Assembly (NCBI RefSeq): GCF_901686465.1 | Contig: NZ_LR594487.1 | Coordinates: 2,927,773-2,991,772 of the forward strand | Direction: 5' to 3' | Length of the DNA stretch: 64,000 nucleotides | Origin: Halorubrum sp. DM2 | Lineage (GTDB): Archaea > Halobacteriota > Halobacteria > Halobacteriales > Haloferacaceae | Shown: piece after piece, positions 54,359 to 59,829 of the stretch | How positions within the stretch are numbered: position 1 is the stretch's first letter | How the letters are laid out: every line of letters starts with the position of its first letter | Translations under genes and position numbers: made by a program | Notes under the pieces: generated by a model | Database searches by the model: none | Seen by the model: the letters and a program-made list of their open reading frames with translations, nothing else | What the model was told of the DNA's origin: nothing

Positions 54359-57250
54359 TCAGTCCCGCTCCGACTCGACGACCCGAACGAGTTCGCGAAG
54401 CTCCGCCATCCCGAGCGGCTCGATCCGTTCGCGGGTCCCGTCGGTCGTGTACAACAGGCTCGCGGAGACCGCCTTGTCGGGGAACCACTCGTCGAGGACG
54501 TGGTAGTACACGCTGAGCTGTTTCCGGTACTCCGGCTGTGCCCGCGGCGTCGCGTCCGTCTTGTAGTCGACGATCTCGACCCGATCGGCCGTCTCGTGGA
54601 CGAGATCTGCGATCCCCGAGACGGTCACCCGGCGGCCGTCGACCTCGATCGGGAGCGTCACCGGCTCCTCGACGTGTTTCTCGCCCGGCAGGTCGTCGAG
54701 GAGGGCGACGACCCTCCGCTCGTGGTCGTTCGACGGCGTCACGTCGTCGCCGAGCGCGTACGCCTCGGCGAAGTCGTGGACGCGCGAGCCGAAGTCCATC
54801 CCGCGCGTCTCCGGTTCCGATTCGGGTTCGGGGCCCGCCTCCGGTCGTTCGTCGGCCTCCTCGAACACCGTCTCGTCCATCAGCGAGTGCGGGGTGTGAC
54901 CGATCGGGCCCTCCGGGGCCGTCACCGCGAACGGCAGCTCCGCGTCGGCCGGCTCGCCGCGGTCGAACGGCTCGACGGCGGGGTCGACCTCCTCGACGGC
55001 GACCGGAAGCTCCCGGAGGAACGCGTTCGGCTCCTCGCCGGCCGCGAACACGACGTGGCTCTCCGCGCGCGACACCGCGACGTAGAGCAGCCGCCGCTCC
55101 TCGTCGTACTCCCGGGGCAGACAGCGCCGACGGACGTCGTGTCGCCAGCTGTCGTAGACGTGCGGATGTGCCCCCGCCTCGGAGTACCGTTTCCGCTGTC
55201 GGAGGCCGACCGGATCCCGGTACTCGACGACGCTCGATCCGCCGGTCCGCGGCGGGAACCGCCCCTCGTTCATGTTCGCCAGCACGACGATCGGATACTC
55301 CAGCCCCTTCGCCGTGTGTATCGTCTGGACGGTCACGGCGTCGTCCCCCGCGTTCGCGCTGAGGTCGACCGTGCTTCCGGCCTCGATGCCGCGCTCGACG
55401 AACCGGATCAGCTCGCCGCGGGTGACGGTCGTCGCGTCGTACGTCGACTGGATCGTGTGGAGGAGGAGGTCCGCGGTGTCGCCCGTGAAGCCGTAGCGGT
55501 CGAAGACGCGGCGTGCGACCGCGCCGACCGACTCCAACTCGCGGAGCGCGTCGCGGAACGCGGCCGCGTCGTCCGGGTACGTCTCCGTCTCCAGCGCGTG
55601 GTCGATCTCGTCGAACGCGTAGCCGGCCCGTTCGAGGACGACCGCCCAGCCGCGGTCGGCGTCCGACTCGAGGATCCGGAGCCACGCGAGTAGCAGCTTC
55701 GCCGGGTCGGTCCGGAACAGCTCGATCCCGCCGTCGTACGCCATCGGGAAGTCGTACTCGTCGGCGACGTCGAGGAGCTCCCGGCCGTAGTCTCGGGTCC
55801 GCGTGAACACCGCGATATCGCCGTACTCCGGCGGACGCGGCTCGCCGTCCTCCCCCTCGACGGCGTAGTCGTCGTCGCCGACGATGTCCTGGACCTTCGA
55901 GAGGACTGCCTCGTGTTCGTCCTCGTGGGTGATTCCCTCGACCACCGTGTTGTCGAACGCCGCGTTCGAGGAGAGTTCGACGACGTCGTCGAGCGGGGCG
56001 TCGACGTCCTCGCCGCCCGTCGCCGGCGTCTCGATGGCCCGCTCGGAGAGGTCGATGACCGACGCCGTCGAGCGGTAGTTCTCCCGGAGCTCGATCCGGG
56101 TCGGGTCGGCGGCGTCGAAGGAGACACGCTCGGCGTCGTCGTTGAGGTCGGCGGCGAACCGCTCCAACCGGTCCTCGAAGTCGAGGATGTTCCGCACGTC
56201 CGCGTACTGGAACGAGTAGATGCTCTGCTTCCAGTCGCCGACGGCACAGAAGTTCTCCGTCCCGGACAGGAGGAGGGCGAGCTTGAACTGGATCTCGCTG
56301 GTGTCCTGAAACTCGTCGACCATGACGTACTCGAACTGCGCTTCCTCCCGGACCCGCGGGTCCTCGCGGAGGAGTACGAACGCGAACAGCTGGAGGAAGC
56401 CGAAGGTGAGGTAGTTCCGCCGCAGGGCGAACCGGACGTACTCGACGTAGGCGTCGTGAACGAACGACTTGAGCGCCTCGCGGTCCTCGAAGAACACCTC
56501 CCGCGCCACGTCGTCGTCGAGCCGCTTCGTCCCGCGCCCGCCGCGGAGCGCCGACTTCGAGGGCGCGTCGCCGAGGTACGCCTTGTTCCGTCCGAAGCGG
56601 CTCAGGTCCTCGCGGAGCGGCGACTGCTTCCGCCCGTCGTTTCGAGGCTGATTCGCGGCGTCGAACAGCTCCTCGAACGCCGCGAAGTCGCCGTCGAGGT
56701 GCGACTCGCCGTCGCCGTACCAGCCGTCGGTCGTGGGGACGACCCCCTTCGCGGCGAGCTCCCGGATCAGGTCGAGCAGCTCGCCCGGCTCATCGAGGAT
56801 CCGATAGAACGCGGCGTACTCCGGGTGGTCGTCGCGGAAGCCGCCGAAGAACTCCCGGAACCGCTCGGTCTCGACCAGCTCGTCGTCCACCACCCGCGTC
56901 GAGCCGGTGATCCGCTCGTCGAGGCCGAGGTGCGTCGGGGCGGCGTGGCCGTGTTCCCCGAGTATCTCGTTACAGTGCGAGTGGAACGTCCGGATCGGCG
57001 CGTCGGCCAGCTCCCGCAGCCCGTACTCGCTGCGGTCGACGATCCGCTCTTTCATCTCCGTCGCAGCGCTCCGCGTGAACGTCGCGAGCAGGACGTCGTC
57101 GGGCTCGACGTCGTCACGGTCGACGACGTTCCCGTAGCGACGGGCGATGGCGAACGTCTTCCCGGTCCCCGGGCCGGCGTCGACGAGGTAGGTCCCCTCG
57201 GTGTGCTCGATCAGCTCCCGTTGCGCGTCGTTGGGCGTCGGGTCGCTCAT
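54359..57250 (-). CDS. AddA-like UvrD-family helicase with nuclease domain
   Basis: The 963-residue protein has all superfamily 1A motifs: GPGTGKT (26-32), EYVMVDEFQDTSEIQFKLAL (motif II), CAVGDWKQSIYSFQYADVRN (III), ELRENYRS (IV), VQTIHTAKGLEYPIVVLANM (V) and EERRLLYVAVSRAESHVVF (VI). The C terminus is a RecB-type nuclease: GIADLV (Asp882) then VEIVDYKTD (Asp895, Lys897) and a helix with Gln911. This domain order is that of AddA. Its ATG overlaps the stop of the AddB-like gene by ATGA, so the two proteins are probably made as a complex. Archaea usually rely on Mre11-Rad50/HerA-NurA for end resection. Confidence 0.88.
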   Translation of the reverse strand: MSDPTPNDAQRELIEHTEGTYLVDAGPGTGKTFAIARRYGNVVDRDDVEPDDVLLATFTRSAATEMKERIVDRSEYGLRELADAPIRTFHSHCNEILGEHGHAAPTHLGLDERITGSTRVVDDELVETERFREFFGGFRDDHPEYAAFYRILDEPGELLDLIRELAAKGVVPTTDGWYGDGESHLDGDFAAFEELFDAANQPRNDGRKQSPLREDLSRFGRNKAYLGDAPSKSALRGGRGTKRLDDDVAREVFFEDREALKSFVHDAYVEYVRFALRRNYLTFGFLQLFAFVLLREDPRVREEAQFEYVMVDEFQDTSEIQFKLALLLSGTENFCAVGDWKQSIYSFQYADVRNILDFEDRLERFAADLNDDAERVSFDAADPTRIELRENYRSTASVIDLSERAIETPATGGEDVDAPLDDVVELSSNAAFDNTVVEGITHEDEHEAVLSKVQDIVGDDDYAVEGEDGEPRPPEYGDIAVFTRTRDYGRELLDVADEYDFPMAYDGGIELFRTDPAKLLLAWLRILESDADRGWAVVLERAGYAFDEIDHALETETYPDDAAAFRDALRELESVGAVARRVFDRYGFTGDTADLLLHTIQSTYDATTVTRGELIRFVERGIEAGSTVDLSANAGDDAVTVQTIHTAKGLEYPIVVLANMNEGRFPPRTGGSSVVEYRDPVGLRQRKRYSEAGAHPHVYDSWRHDVRRRCLPREYDEERRLLYVAVSRAESHVVFAAGEEPNAFLRELPVAVEEVDPAVEPFDRGEPADAELPFAVTAPEGPIGHTPHSLMDETVFEEADERPEAGPEPESEPETRGMDFGSRVHDFAEAYALGDDVTPSNDHERRVVALLDDLPGEKHVEEPVTLPIEVDGRRVTVSGIADLVHETADRVEIVDYKTDATPRAQPEYRKQLSVYYHVLDEWFPDKAVSASLLYTTDGTRERIEPLGMAELRELVRVVESERD

Positions 57251-59829
57251 CGGTCCCCCTCTAACAGCAGGTCGCGGTTGTCCACTCGGCGGTAGTTCGG
57301 CTCGCCCCCGAGCCCGTCGACCGGGAAGCGCTCCTCGCCGGCCCGTCGCCGGTTCAGCTCTTCCAAGCGCTCGTCGACGAACGACTCGAACGCGTCGAGG
57401 TCCTCACGGAAGAACGCGCGCCTGCGGACGCCGTTGAGCGCCCGGATCGCCTGATCCGCGCCCTTCTCGGCGTCGACCGCACCGGACGTTCCGGCGTCGA
57501 CGGCGGCGGTGAACCGCTCGGCGAACGCGGAGGCGCGAAGCTCGCCTTTGTCTGTCGTCTCGGGGAACGACAGATCCGCGACGGCGTCGGCGTAGGCCGC
57601 GTAGCCCAACTCCTCGAACGTCTCCCGACAGTCGGTGTACCCGTCGAGCAGTTCCTCGTAGGCGTCCCGGGAACCGACGTACTCGTCGAACGTGACGGGG
57701 TGATACGAGACCGTCGTGAGCGCGTCGTCGAGGTCGGCGTCGCCCGCGATCACGTCGTCCATCGGTTCGAGGAAGTGGAAGAAGGTGAACTCCAGCGGCT
57801 CGTCCGGTCGGAGGGTTCGGTAGTAGGTCAGGTACAGCGCCGCCTGGAAGTTCGGCGTCTCCGCCGGCGGATCGATCGCCGCGTTTGTGACCACCTGCGA
57901 GGGTCGCTTCTTGGACCCGCTCTTGTAGTCGAGCAGGTGCGTCGGCGTTCGCACGAGGTCGATCTTTCCCTTGACGCCGAGCGCGCCGTCCTCGAACCAG
58001 CGCTCGGTGAGCGGGGAGTCGACCGGGCGGTCGAAGTGGTCCGCGAAGAAGTTGTCGCCCCAGCCGGATGTCGCCGTGAGGAACTCGTCGGACTCCGGTC
58101 CGTTCTCGTCGAGGTACGCTGGGATTAGCTCCAGTCCGATTCGGTATCTCCGCCGGCGGAGGGGCTCGTCCGACGCCGAGAAGAACGCCTCGGTCTCCCC
58201 GAGCATGGCGTCGACGAGGTCGTCGAGGTCGGCCGCCGCGACGGCGTCGGGGTGGTTCACGTAGAACTCCGCGAAGTCGTGGAAGAGGTTCCCCTCGACG
58301 AACCGCTCCCGATCGGGCGAATCGAGGAGCCGCCCGAAGAGATAATCTCGCGGGCTGTTGACGTAGCCGTTGAGGGCGGACTGGCTGACCGTCTCGACCG
58401 TCTCAGCGTCGACCCCGAGCGGCCGGCGGTCGAAGCCGTCGCCGGTCTGTCGCGGCCGCCGTCGGTGTTCGACCGAGTCGAGGTCGCTGAACCGCTCGAA
58501 CCCCTCGTCGAGCAGGTCGCCGAAGTACAGACAGGGCGTGACGGGCTCCCCACCCGCGGCGTCCCGGACGAGGTAGTACCGCCGGTCGCCGCTCTGGAGC
58601 AGGCGCTGGAAGTCCCCGACGTAGCGCTCGAACTGCGTCTCGGCGTCCACCCACGGCCGCTTCGGGGCCCAGTGCGTCCACTCCTCGCCCATTCCGAGGT
58701 GGAAGACCACGGGTCGGTCCACGTAGGCCGATGACTTCGCGTCGGCGAGGAGGACGCCCTCGTTGTCCCTGTCGACGGGGACCTCGTAGGTCTGGAGGTA
58801 GTAGGCGAGCCGGTCGACCGCGCCCTCGGTCACGGGTTCGTCGGCGAGACCGAGCTTCCGTAGCTCCTCGTCGAAGCGCGTCAGCTCGACCCCGGCTCTG
58901 TCCGCGTACGCGTCGAGCGCCGCCGCGAACGTCCGGTCCTCGACGCCGTCGCGAAACTCCCGCAGCCACTCGACTCCGGGACCGTCGACCGTCGCCAGTC
59001 GCCTGTCGCGGTCGCGGACCGGAGCGTCGACGCCCAACTGCGAGAGCACCGGCCGGGCGTCGCCGACGGTCGTGTCGGACCCCCGGAAGCCGAGCCGGAG
59101 GAGCTGGACGAACGCCCTGTGGTGCGGGTCGTCGGCGAACCCCGGACCGCCGTAGAAGGGAATATCGGCCGCTTCGAGGGCGGACTCGACGAGCGAGGAG
59201 TACTGGCCGCCGCCGTCGAGGACGACCGCGACGCGGTCGGCGTTGCGCGCCGAGACGGCGTCGAGGAGCGCCGCGACGATGTCGGTCGCCGACTCGAAGA
59301 CGTGGAAGGGCGGGCGGTCGAACGCCCCGTCGGTGAACAGGTCGACGCGGTCGAACGACTCCGGGAGGACGCCGCGCTCCAAGGTCGTCAGCCGGTCGTG
59401 GCCGACGACCGCGACCGACTGGCCGTCATCGACAGAGTACTCCGTGAGCCGCTTCGACGTGGTTCGGAGGTCTCGCATGGCCGCGACGACCTCGCGGGTC
59501 GCGTCGTCGACGTAGGCGTCGTACTCGAAGATCGCGTCGAGCCGCCCCTGCTGTTCCCAACACTGGAGCACGTTCCCCACGGCGTACGCGATCGCCTTCC
59601 AGTCGCGGTCCGTCTCCGAGACGAGTTCGAGGAACGCGCGGCGGTCCTCCGCCTGTTCACGCCGACCGGCCGCGAGGCGGCGCGGGGTGGTGGCGAACGT
59701 CCCGAAGTGCGGGCGGTCGAGGCGGCGGTTGATCGCGCTCGCGAGCGGGGCGTCGGGAGCGACGACGAGGTCGTACTCGGCGAGTTCCGCGTAGAGTGCG
59801 TCTGCCGACTTCGCTTCGCGGATAGGCAC
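57247..59829 (-). CDS. AddB-like PD-(D/E)XK nuclease with RecC/AddB-type N terminus
   Basis: The 860-residue protein starts at a GTG. Its N-terminal 550 residues lack a Walker A (DLVVAPDAPLASAINRRL) but have strand-helix order and VAVVLDGGGQYSSLVESALE then DIPFYGGPG, like the inactive helicase part of AddB/RecC. Near 618-662 is a PD-(D/E)XK site: GKIDLV (Asp624), LLDYKSG (Asp634, Lys636) and FQAALYL (Gln662). The four Cys of the AddB iron-sulphur staple are absent. TATA-like GCTATCTTTTTG lies about 30 nt upstream. It overlaps the addA-like gene by four bases. Confidence 0.82.
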   Translation of the reverse strand: MPIREAKSADALYAELAEYDLVVAPDAPLASAINRRLDRPHFGTFATTPRRLAAGRREQAEDRRAFLELVSETDRDWKAIAYAVGNVLQCWEQQGRLDAIFEYDAYVDDATREVVAAMRDLRTTSKRLTEYSVDDGQSVAVVGHDRLTTLERGVLPESFDRVDLFTDGAFDRPPFHVFESATDIVAALLDAVSARNADRVAVVLDGGGQYSSLVESALEAADIPFYGGPGFADDPHHRAFVQLLRLGFRGSDTTVGDARPVLSQLGVDAPVRDRDRRLATVDGPGVEWLREFRDGVEDRTFAAALDAYADRAGVELTRFDEELRKLGLADEPVTEGAVDRLAYYLQTYEVPVDRDNEGVLLADAKSSAYVDRPVVFHLGMGEEWTHWAPKRPWVDAETQFERYVGDFQRLLQSGDRRYYLVRDAAGGEPVTPCLYFGDLLDEGFERFSDLDSVEHRRRPRQTGDGFDRRPLGVDAETVETVSQSALNGYVNSPRDYLFGRLLDSPDRERFVEGNLFHDFAEFYVNHPDAVAAADLDDLVDAMLGETEAFFSASDEPLRRRRYRIGLELIPAYLDENGPESDEFLTATSGWGDNFFADHFDRPVDSPLTERWFEDGALGVKGKIDLVRTPTHLLDYKSGSKKRPSQVVTNAAIDPPAETPNFQAALYLTYYRTLRPDEPLEFTFFHFLEPMDDVIAGDADLDDALTTVSYHPVTFDEYVGSRDAYEELLDGYTDCRETFEELGYAAYADAVADLSFPETTDKGELRASAFAERFTAAVDAGTSGAVDAEKGADQAIRALNGVRRRAFFREDLDAFESFVDERLEELNRRRAGEERFPVDGLGGEPNYRRVDNRDLLLEGDR

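Follow-up and report, generated by a model that had tools for sequence, protein, structure and literature searches.

RecBCD and AddAB are treated as bacterial systems in reviews of archaeal DNA repair, where resection in haloarchaea is ascribed to Mre11-Rad50 (PMC7776575, PMC7690668). Haloferax in particular is described as relying on Mre11-Rad50 and as lacking both HerA and NurA (PMC7776575). For AddAB, the Fe-S cluster is reported to be essential for the binding of DNA ends (Yeeles et al., 2009, as cited in PMC3466216). No description of an archaeal AddAB, with or without such a cluster, was found in the literature searched, although absence there is not proof, and the compact Fe-S-free class presented below apparently has not been described before.

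The window, a stretch of 64,000 nucleotides from Halorubrum sp. DM2 (genome of 3.45 Mb in a single contig), was found to carry two overlapping genes for which the database names are only 'PD-(D/E)XK nuclease family protein' and 'ATP-dependent DNA helicase'. It is considered about 75% probable that they encode a compact, Fe-S-free heterodimeric helicase-nuclease of AddAB type, which would be accessory and partly interchangeable with a full-size haloarchaeal AddAB that has the Fe-S cluster. The features of the pair, in window positions, are as follows.

57247..59829, minus strand: gene for the B subunit, AddB-like (860 aa, GTG start, first gene in the pair)
54359..57250, minus strand: gene for the A subunit, AddA-like UvrD helicase plus RecB-type nuclease (963 aa, ATG start)
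57247..57250, minus strand: B/A stop/start overlap ATGA, 4 nt
58462..59820, minus strand: B, helicase-like region with UvrD/AddB fold and without ATP-binding motifs (aa 4-456)
58693..58758, minus strand: B, degenerate motif-V-like remnant GVLLADAKSSAYVDRPVVFHLG (aa 358-379), profile-aligned to the motif V region of AddA
58336..58365, minus strand: B, first AddB Fe-S cysteine position, occupied by Ser (YVNSPRDYLF, aa 489-498)
57259..58404, minus strand: B, Cas4/RecB-type nuclease domain (aa 476-857)
55064..57232, minus strand: A, SF1A helicase motor, motifs Q to VI (aa 7-729)
54446..54802, minus strand: A, RecB-type nuclease domain (about aa 817-935)

The first-pass annotation had described two minus-strand ORFs overlapping by ATGA, and both the coordinates and the 4-nt overlap proved to be exact. 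The G+C content of the surroundings is about 0.70. The closest named relatives of B are from Halorubrum species, with H. tebenquichense at 91% (within the best 80 of 140 matches).

The A subunit matches the Pfam families UvrD-helicase (5.6e-50), UvrD_C (2.2e-26) and PDDEXK_1 (5.8e-10). It had been annotated as having complete helicase motifs together with a RecB-type nuclease, and this was borne out, as the SF1 motifs Q, I, Ia, Ic, II, III, IV, V, and VI were all located, along with nuclease residues H825, D882, D895, K897, Q911, and Y915, which are invariant in an alignment of 30 diverse members. The score of A against the NCBIfam AddA model (171.2 bits) is far under the equivalog cut-off of 707.65; profile comparison matches compact A to the AddA of the Fe-S type. 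In a tree of 29 helicase sequences, the compact A proteins group as a single clade beside haloarchaeal AddA and Escherichia coli RecB. The A proteins of the full-size haloarchaeal class make up a separate clade, and both UvrD/Rep of E. coli and the UvrD-Cas4 proteins lie apart; this tree was built without Bacillus AddA and AdnB and does not fix the order inside the AddA/RecB group.

The B subunit had been read as an inactive helicase-like N terminus followed by a nuclease, which also stands. Its only Pfam match is PDDEXK_1 (9.3e-13), its nuclease residues are complete (H517, D624, D634, K636, Q662, and Y666, invariant in the alignment of 30 diverse members), and a Walker A motif, G....GK[ST], is absent from the first 150 aa of all 44 compact B proteins scanned. 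The motif-V-like remnant is, judging from its alignment, a putative relic of the dead motor. Among the NCBIfam equivalog models there was no AddB match for B, and PDB searches with its sequence or profile gave no true relative; relatives were found by fold search alone. An AlphaFold2 model was compared with known structures (62 sequences, mean pLDDT 82.4, pTM 0.57). Foldseek placed AdnA first (7sjr_A, 2.0e-11), then AddB (3u44_B, 1.1e-10), with RecC lower. In VIA-align 2 the model matched AddB 4cei_B with a Z of 16.0 (683 residues aligned over 4-859), UvrD with a Z of 16.1 limited to residues 5-456, and Cas4-family proteins over 473-857. These matches indicate the plan of AddB, in which a UvrD-like region precedes a Cas4-like nuclease, although the whole-chain rmsd of about 10 A on AddB means that the individual domains match and their relative placement is uncertain. 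Independently of the fold match, profile comparison linked compact B to the haloarchaeal AddB of the Fe-S type (probability 97.7, E 1.6e-12). An AddB/RecC-like fold, on which the first-pass annotation had made its reading of the pair depend in part, is thus predicted by the model and seconded by the profile. The AddAB-like architecture proposed there is upheld as a whole, with gene adjacency, the motifs and tree position of A, and the predicted fold and profile match of B in agreement.

The cysteines that hold the Fe-S cluster of AddB had been noted as missing from the window B, and this extends to the whole compact family. The pattern C-x2-C-x4-8-C after residue 550 is absent from all 88 distinct compact B proteins. 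At the first Fe-S position, however, 27 of the 88 keep a Cys (N-C-P-R), the others having mostly Ser. This relic suggests that the cluster was probably once present in the lineage of compact B and then lost, rather than never having been there. By comparison, all four cysteines are found in 19 of 19 B proteins of the full-size haloarchaeal class and are invariant in their alignment. From their sequences, then, archaea have two putative AddAB-type classes, one with an Fe-S cluster and one without. As the cluster is reported to be essential for end binding, its absence from the compact family is a point against the AddAB-type reading.

The full-size pairs with the Fe-S cysteines (loci L176 and L194-L211) encode proteins of about 1060-1160 and 1210-1360 aa, an example being L176:2843-10059 (genome G037) with 1131 and 1274 aa and a 4-nt overlap. 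They score 337 bits against the AddA model, compared with 171 for the compact class, and are still not named AddAB by the curated cut-offs. Among 292 genomes of the class Halobacteria, the compact pair was found in 122, full-size B in 56, both in 13 and neither in 127, so that 165 have at least one AddAB-like class. The two coexist in 13 genomes compared with 23.4 expected (OR 0.35, Fisher p=0.0016, phylogeny ignored), which hints that they may do overlapping jobs. A different arrangement was observed at L178:7606-11963 (G010), where a gene for a 301 aa Cas4-like nuclease overlaps a following one for a 1151 aa UvrD-helicase-nuclease; similar nucleases of ~300 aa occur in several other haloarchaea and give weak matches to the B profile.

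Relatives of B occur in 126 of the 292 genomes and in 48 of 77 genera, or in 122 genomes after removal of fragments, and two genomes from elsewhere in the phylum Halobacteriota (G293 and G318; L172:8974-14435 and L173:5450-10832) also have the compact pair. Plasmid records with B number 34 and those with A 36, the named matches among those listed being all haloarchaeal. Beyond Halobacteriota the survey covered plasmids and the best 80 of 140 genome contig matches, and bacterial relatives may exist. Phage records and viral contigs contained no relative of the pair, so as far as those collections go it is not virus-borne. At least a trace of B was seen in 28 of 35 listed Halorubrum genomes, and in several of them the copy corresponding to that of the window is at the same chromosomal place, beside MFS transporter and radical SAM genes and amidohydrolase or PALP genes. 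Outside Halorubrum the gene context is variable. Decayed copies were also seen: in L075 (G065) the A gene is split by inserted DNA between helicase and nuclease, and in L076 (G009) only remnants are left (B 1-60 and A 837-956). The compact pair is an accessory, often mobile module of chromosomes and plasmids; since most genomes do not have it, it is not a general archaeal resection machine. The Halorhabdus tiamatea plasmid pHTIA (NC_021913.1) carries two compact pairs (142591-148048 and 295739-301196), one beside genes for an SMC-related protein, RdfA and ParA and the other beside BREX-5 pglZ.

A second copy of the pair, paralogous to the first (861 + 949 aa, 4-nt overlap), is found in the window genome itself at 1089897-1095329 and shares 51% identity with the window pair in B and 58% in A. 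It is in a stretch of low G+C content, about 0.46-0.61, within an island (L006:330-14198, G000 1083329-1097197) that encodes an OLD-like ATPase with TOPRIM, a plasmid-type MCM, an Mrr-type endonuclease and a CetZ tubulin, surroundings which are as expected of an integrated plasmid-like island. Elsewhere in this genome a 380 aa Cas4-like nuclease (L007:4267-9636, G000 about 1670267-1675636) is encoded next to genes for a serine recombinase, a TFB-like protein and a PLD/DEAD helicase, in an apparently mobile or defence-related locus, and a 1183 aa UvrD-type helicase with a long coiled-coil-like N-terminal part, in which no nuclease domain was detected, is found at L190:202-3753.

In all 44 related loci the gene for A directly follows that for B, and the two overlap by either 4 or 8 nt, never by another length. 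The patristic distances of A and B over 46 pairs are correlated with r=0.936, a value as high being seen in 0 of 2000 permutations, and the two trees have 26 of 43 splits in common. Strict linkage and tree agreement favour a physical interaction between the predicted A and B proteins. A third conserved neighbour gene, RecD-like included, was not found among 124 loci, where the commonest other neighbour family is near 13 at most, and the pair therefore appears to be a self-contained two-gene unit. With relatives in 122 of 292 genomes, constant B-A adjacency and a dN/dS of 0.23 for both A and B (window pair against a close relative), the pair is far beyond chance. Archaea and bacteria are known to have defence-associated UvrD-Cas4 fusions and pairs (PMC5704561), and by that precedent A and B could be two independent enzymes, A a UvrD-Cas4-type fusion and B a lone Cas4-like nuclease, encoded side by side by chance. 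This is most improbable, given the 44/44 adjacency with its fixed overlaps, the co-evolving trees, the AddB-like predicted fold of B and the position of A outside the UvrD-Cas4 branch.

The compact pair is most likely an accessory helicase-nuclease of double-stranded DNA ends, and its main service may be in repair or in defence. Its patchy distribution and plasmid carriage would suit a nuclease directed mainly against viruses and plasmids, acting on incoming or cut linear DNA downstream of restriction, BREX, and CRISPR, with repair secondary. Of 12 annotated plasmid loci, 7 indeed have BREX, R-M, CRISPR or DUF499/SNF2-type genes no more than about 10 kb away, DrmD/BrxH-like and DrmMI-like proteins are among the recurrent neighbours, and the second copy in the window genome adjoins OLD-like and Mrr genes. 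However, such defence genes are also present in 4 of 11 control windows from the same plasmids (one further control was dropped as it held another copy of the compact pair), so that no enrichment is shown (p=0.41). There is, in addition, no conserved defence partner, PADLOC models gave no match to B and only generic UvrD/GajB/RTasHel matches to A, and the window copy is at a conserved Halorubrum site beside metabolic genes. A mainly anti-virus or anti-plasmid function is accordingly considered rather unlikely. Several pairs are near orc1/cdc6, ParA, PolB or integrase genes, and the second copy is near the plasmid-type MCM and CetZ, as might be seen if the pair were a module for plasmid or replicon maintenance or recombination, for example at the ends of plasmid replication intermediates. 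Yet rep/par genes are common on these plasmids anyway, any single neighbour family is common to only a minority of the 124 loci, and several Halorubrum genomes have a chromosomal, syntenic copy; this function is considered improbable.

HerA-NurA had been named in the first-pass annotation as part of the usual archaeal resection machinery, which does not hold for haloarchaea: no HerA HAS-barrel was found in the window genome, though a NurA-domain protein is present (G000:C1:448021-448989). Of 39 genomes searched for NurA-domain proteins, 37 have one, as does the Haloferax volcanii control, contrary to the absence from H. volcanii given in the review. The Rad50 model TIGR00606 had no match in the window genome and remained under cut-off in all controls too. 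It may tentatively be proposed, with more doubt than confidence, that haloarchaea use an undescribed, often mobile AddAB-type complex without Fe-S for end processing or DNA destruction, instead of Fe-S AddAB and HerA-NurA.

As an accessory end-processing enzyme, the compact pair would be expected to work along the lines known from its relatives. The A-B complex would bind a double-stranded DNA end, and A would translocate with ATP in the 3'-5' direction, a polarity assigned by family, and so split the strands. As these emerge, the nuclease of A would cut the 3'-ended strand and that of B the 5'-ended strand, while the dead helicase domain of B may guide one strand as in AddB and RecC. In sum, linear DNA ends would be processed or degraded quickly, as input for RadA-dependent recombination, and the same degradation could also destroy foreign linear DNA. 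If haloarchaea do use such an Fe-S-free complex instead of Fe-S AddAB and HerA-NurA, the Fe-S staple thought essential for end binding by AddAB can be lost, and RecBCD/AddAB chemistry would be native to a large group of archaea, perhaps under Chi-like control of its own and with an anti-virus role. The compact family offers a natural test of the purpose of the AddB Fe-S cluster. It also offers one of whether recombination, mating and virus defence are shaped by accessory machines for resection or degradation in haloarchaea, for which genetics are available.

Among the systems with which the compact pair can be compared, HerA-NurA is likewise an archaeal ATP-dependent end-resection nuclease, but its motor and nuclease families are unrelated. 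UvrD-Cas4 fusions and the GajB protein of Gabija have in common with it an SF1 helicase and, in the fusions, a Cas4-like nuclease; they are, however, single-chain or have another partner and form a separate tree branch, and the GajB matches of A are generic to UvrD. Mycobacterial AdnAB also has two subunits, each with a nuclease, and AdnA is the top Foldseek match of B, but AdnAB has motor motifs in both subunits whereas compact B has no ATP-binding motifs. RecBCD is similar in the RecB-like A and the RecC-like predicted fold of B. It differs in that the compact pair has no RecD-like third gene (SF1B helicase) and in that the nuclease residues of B are invariant, whereas RecC is not a nuclease. 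The likeness to bacterial AddAB/RexAB is that of a two-gene operon in which A has an SF1A helicase and RecB nuclease and B an inactive helicase fold and nuclease. Compared with these, the compact pair is about 25% smaller (963+860 vs about 1230+1160 aa), the Fe-S cysteine set is missing in all 88 compact B proteins, compact A scores 171 bits against a cut-off of 708 and B has no AddB model match; because of the missing cluster and the curated cut-offs, the pair is not filed as plain AddAB. The full-size haloarchaeal AddAB-like pairs differ from it in the four Fe-S cysteines they keep, in the separate clade of A and in their occurrence in 56 of 292 genomes, but share with the compact pair the gene order, the domain plan and a kinship seen in their profiles.
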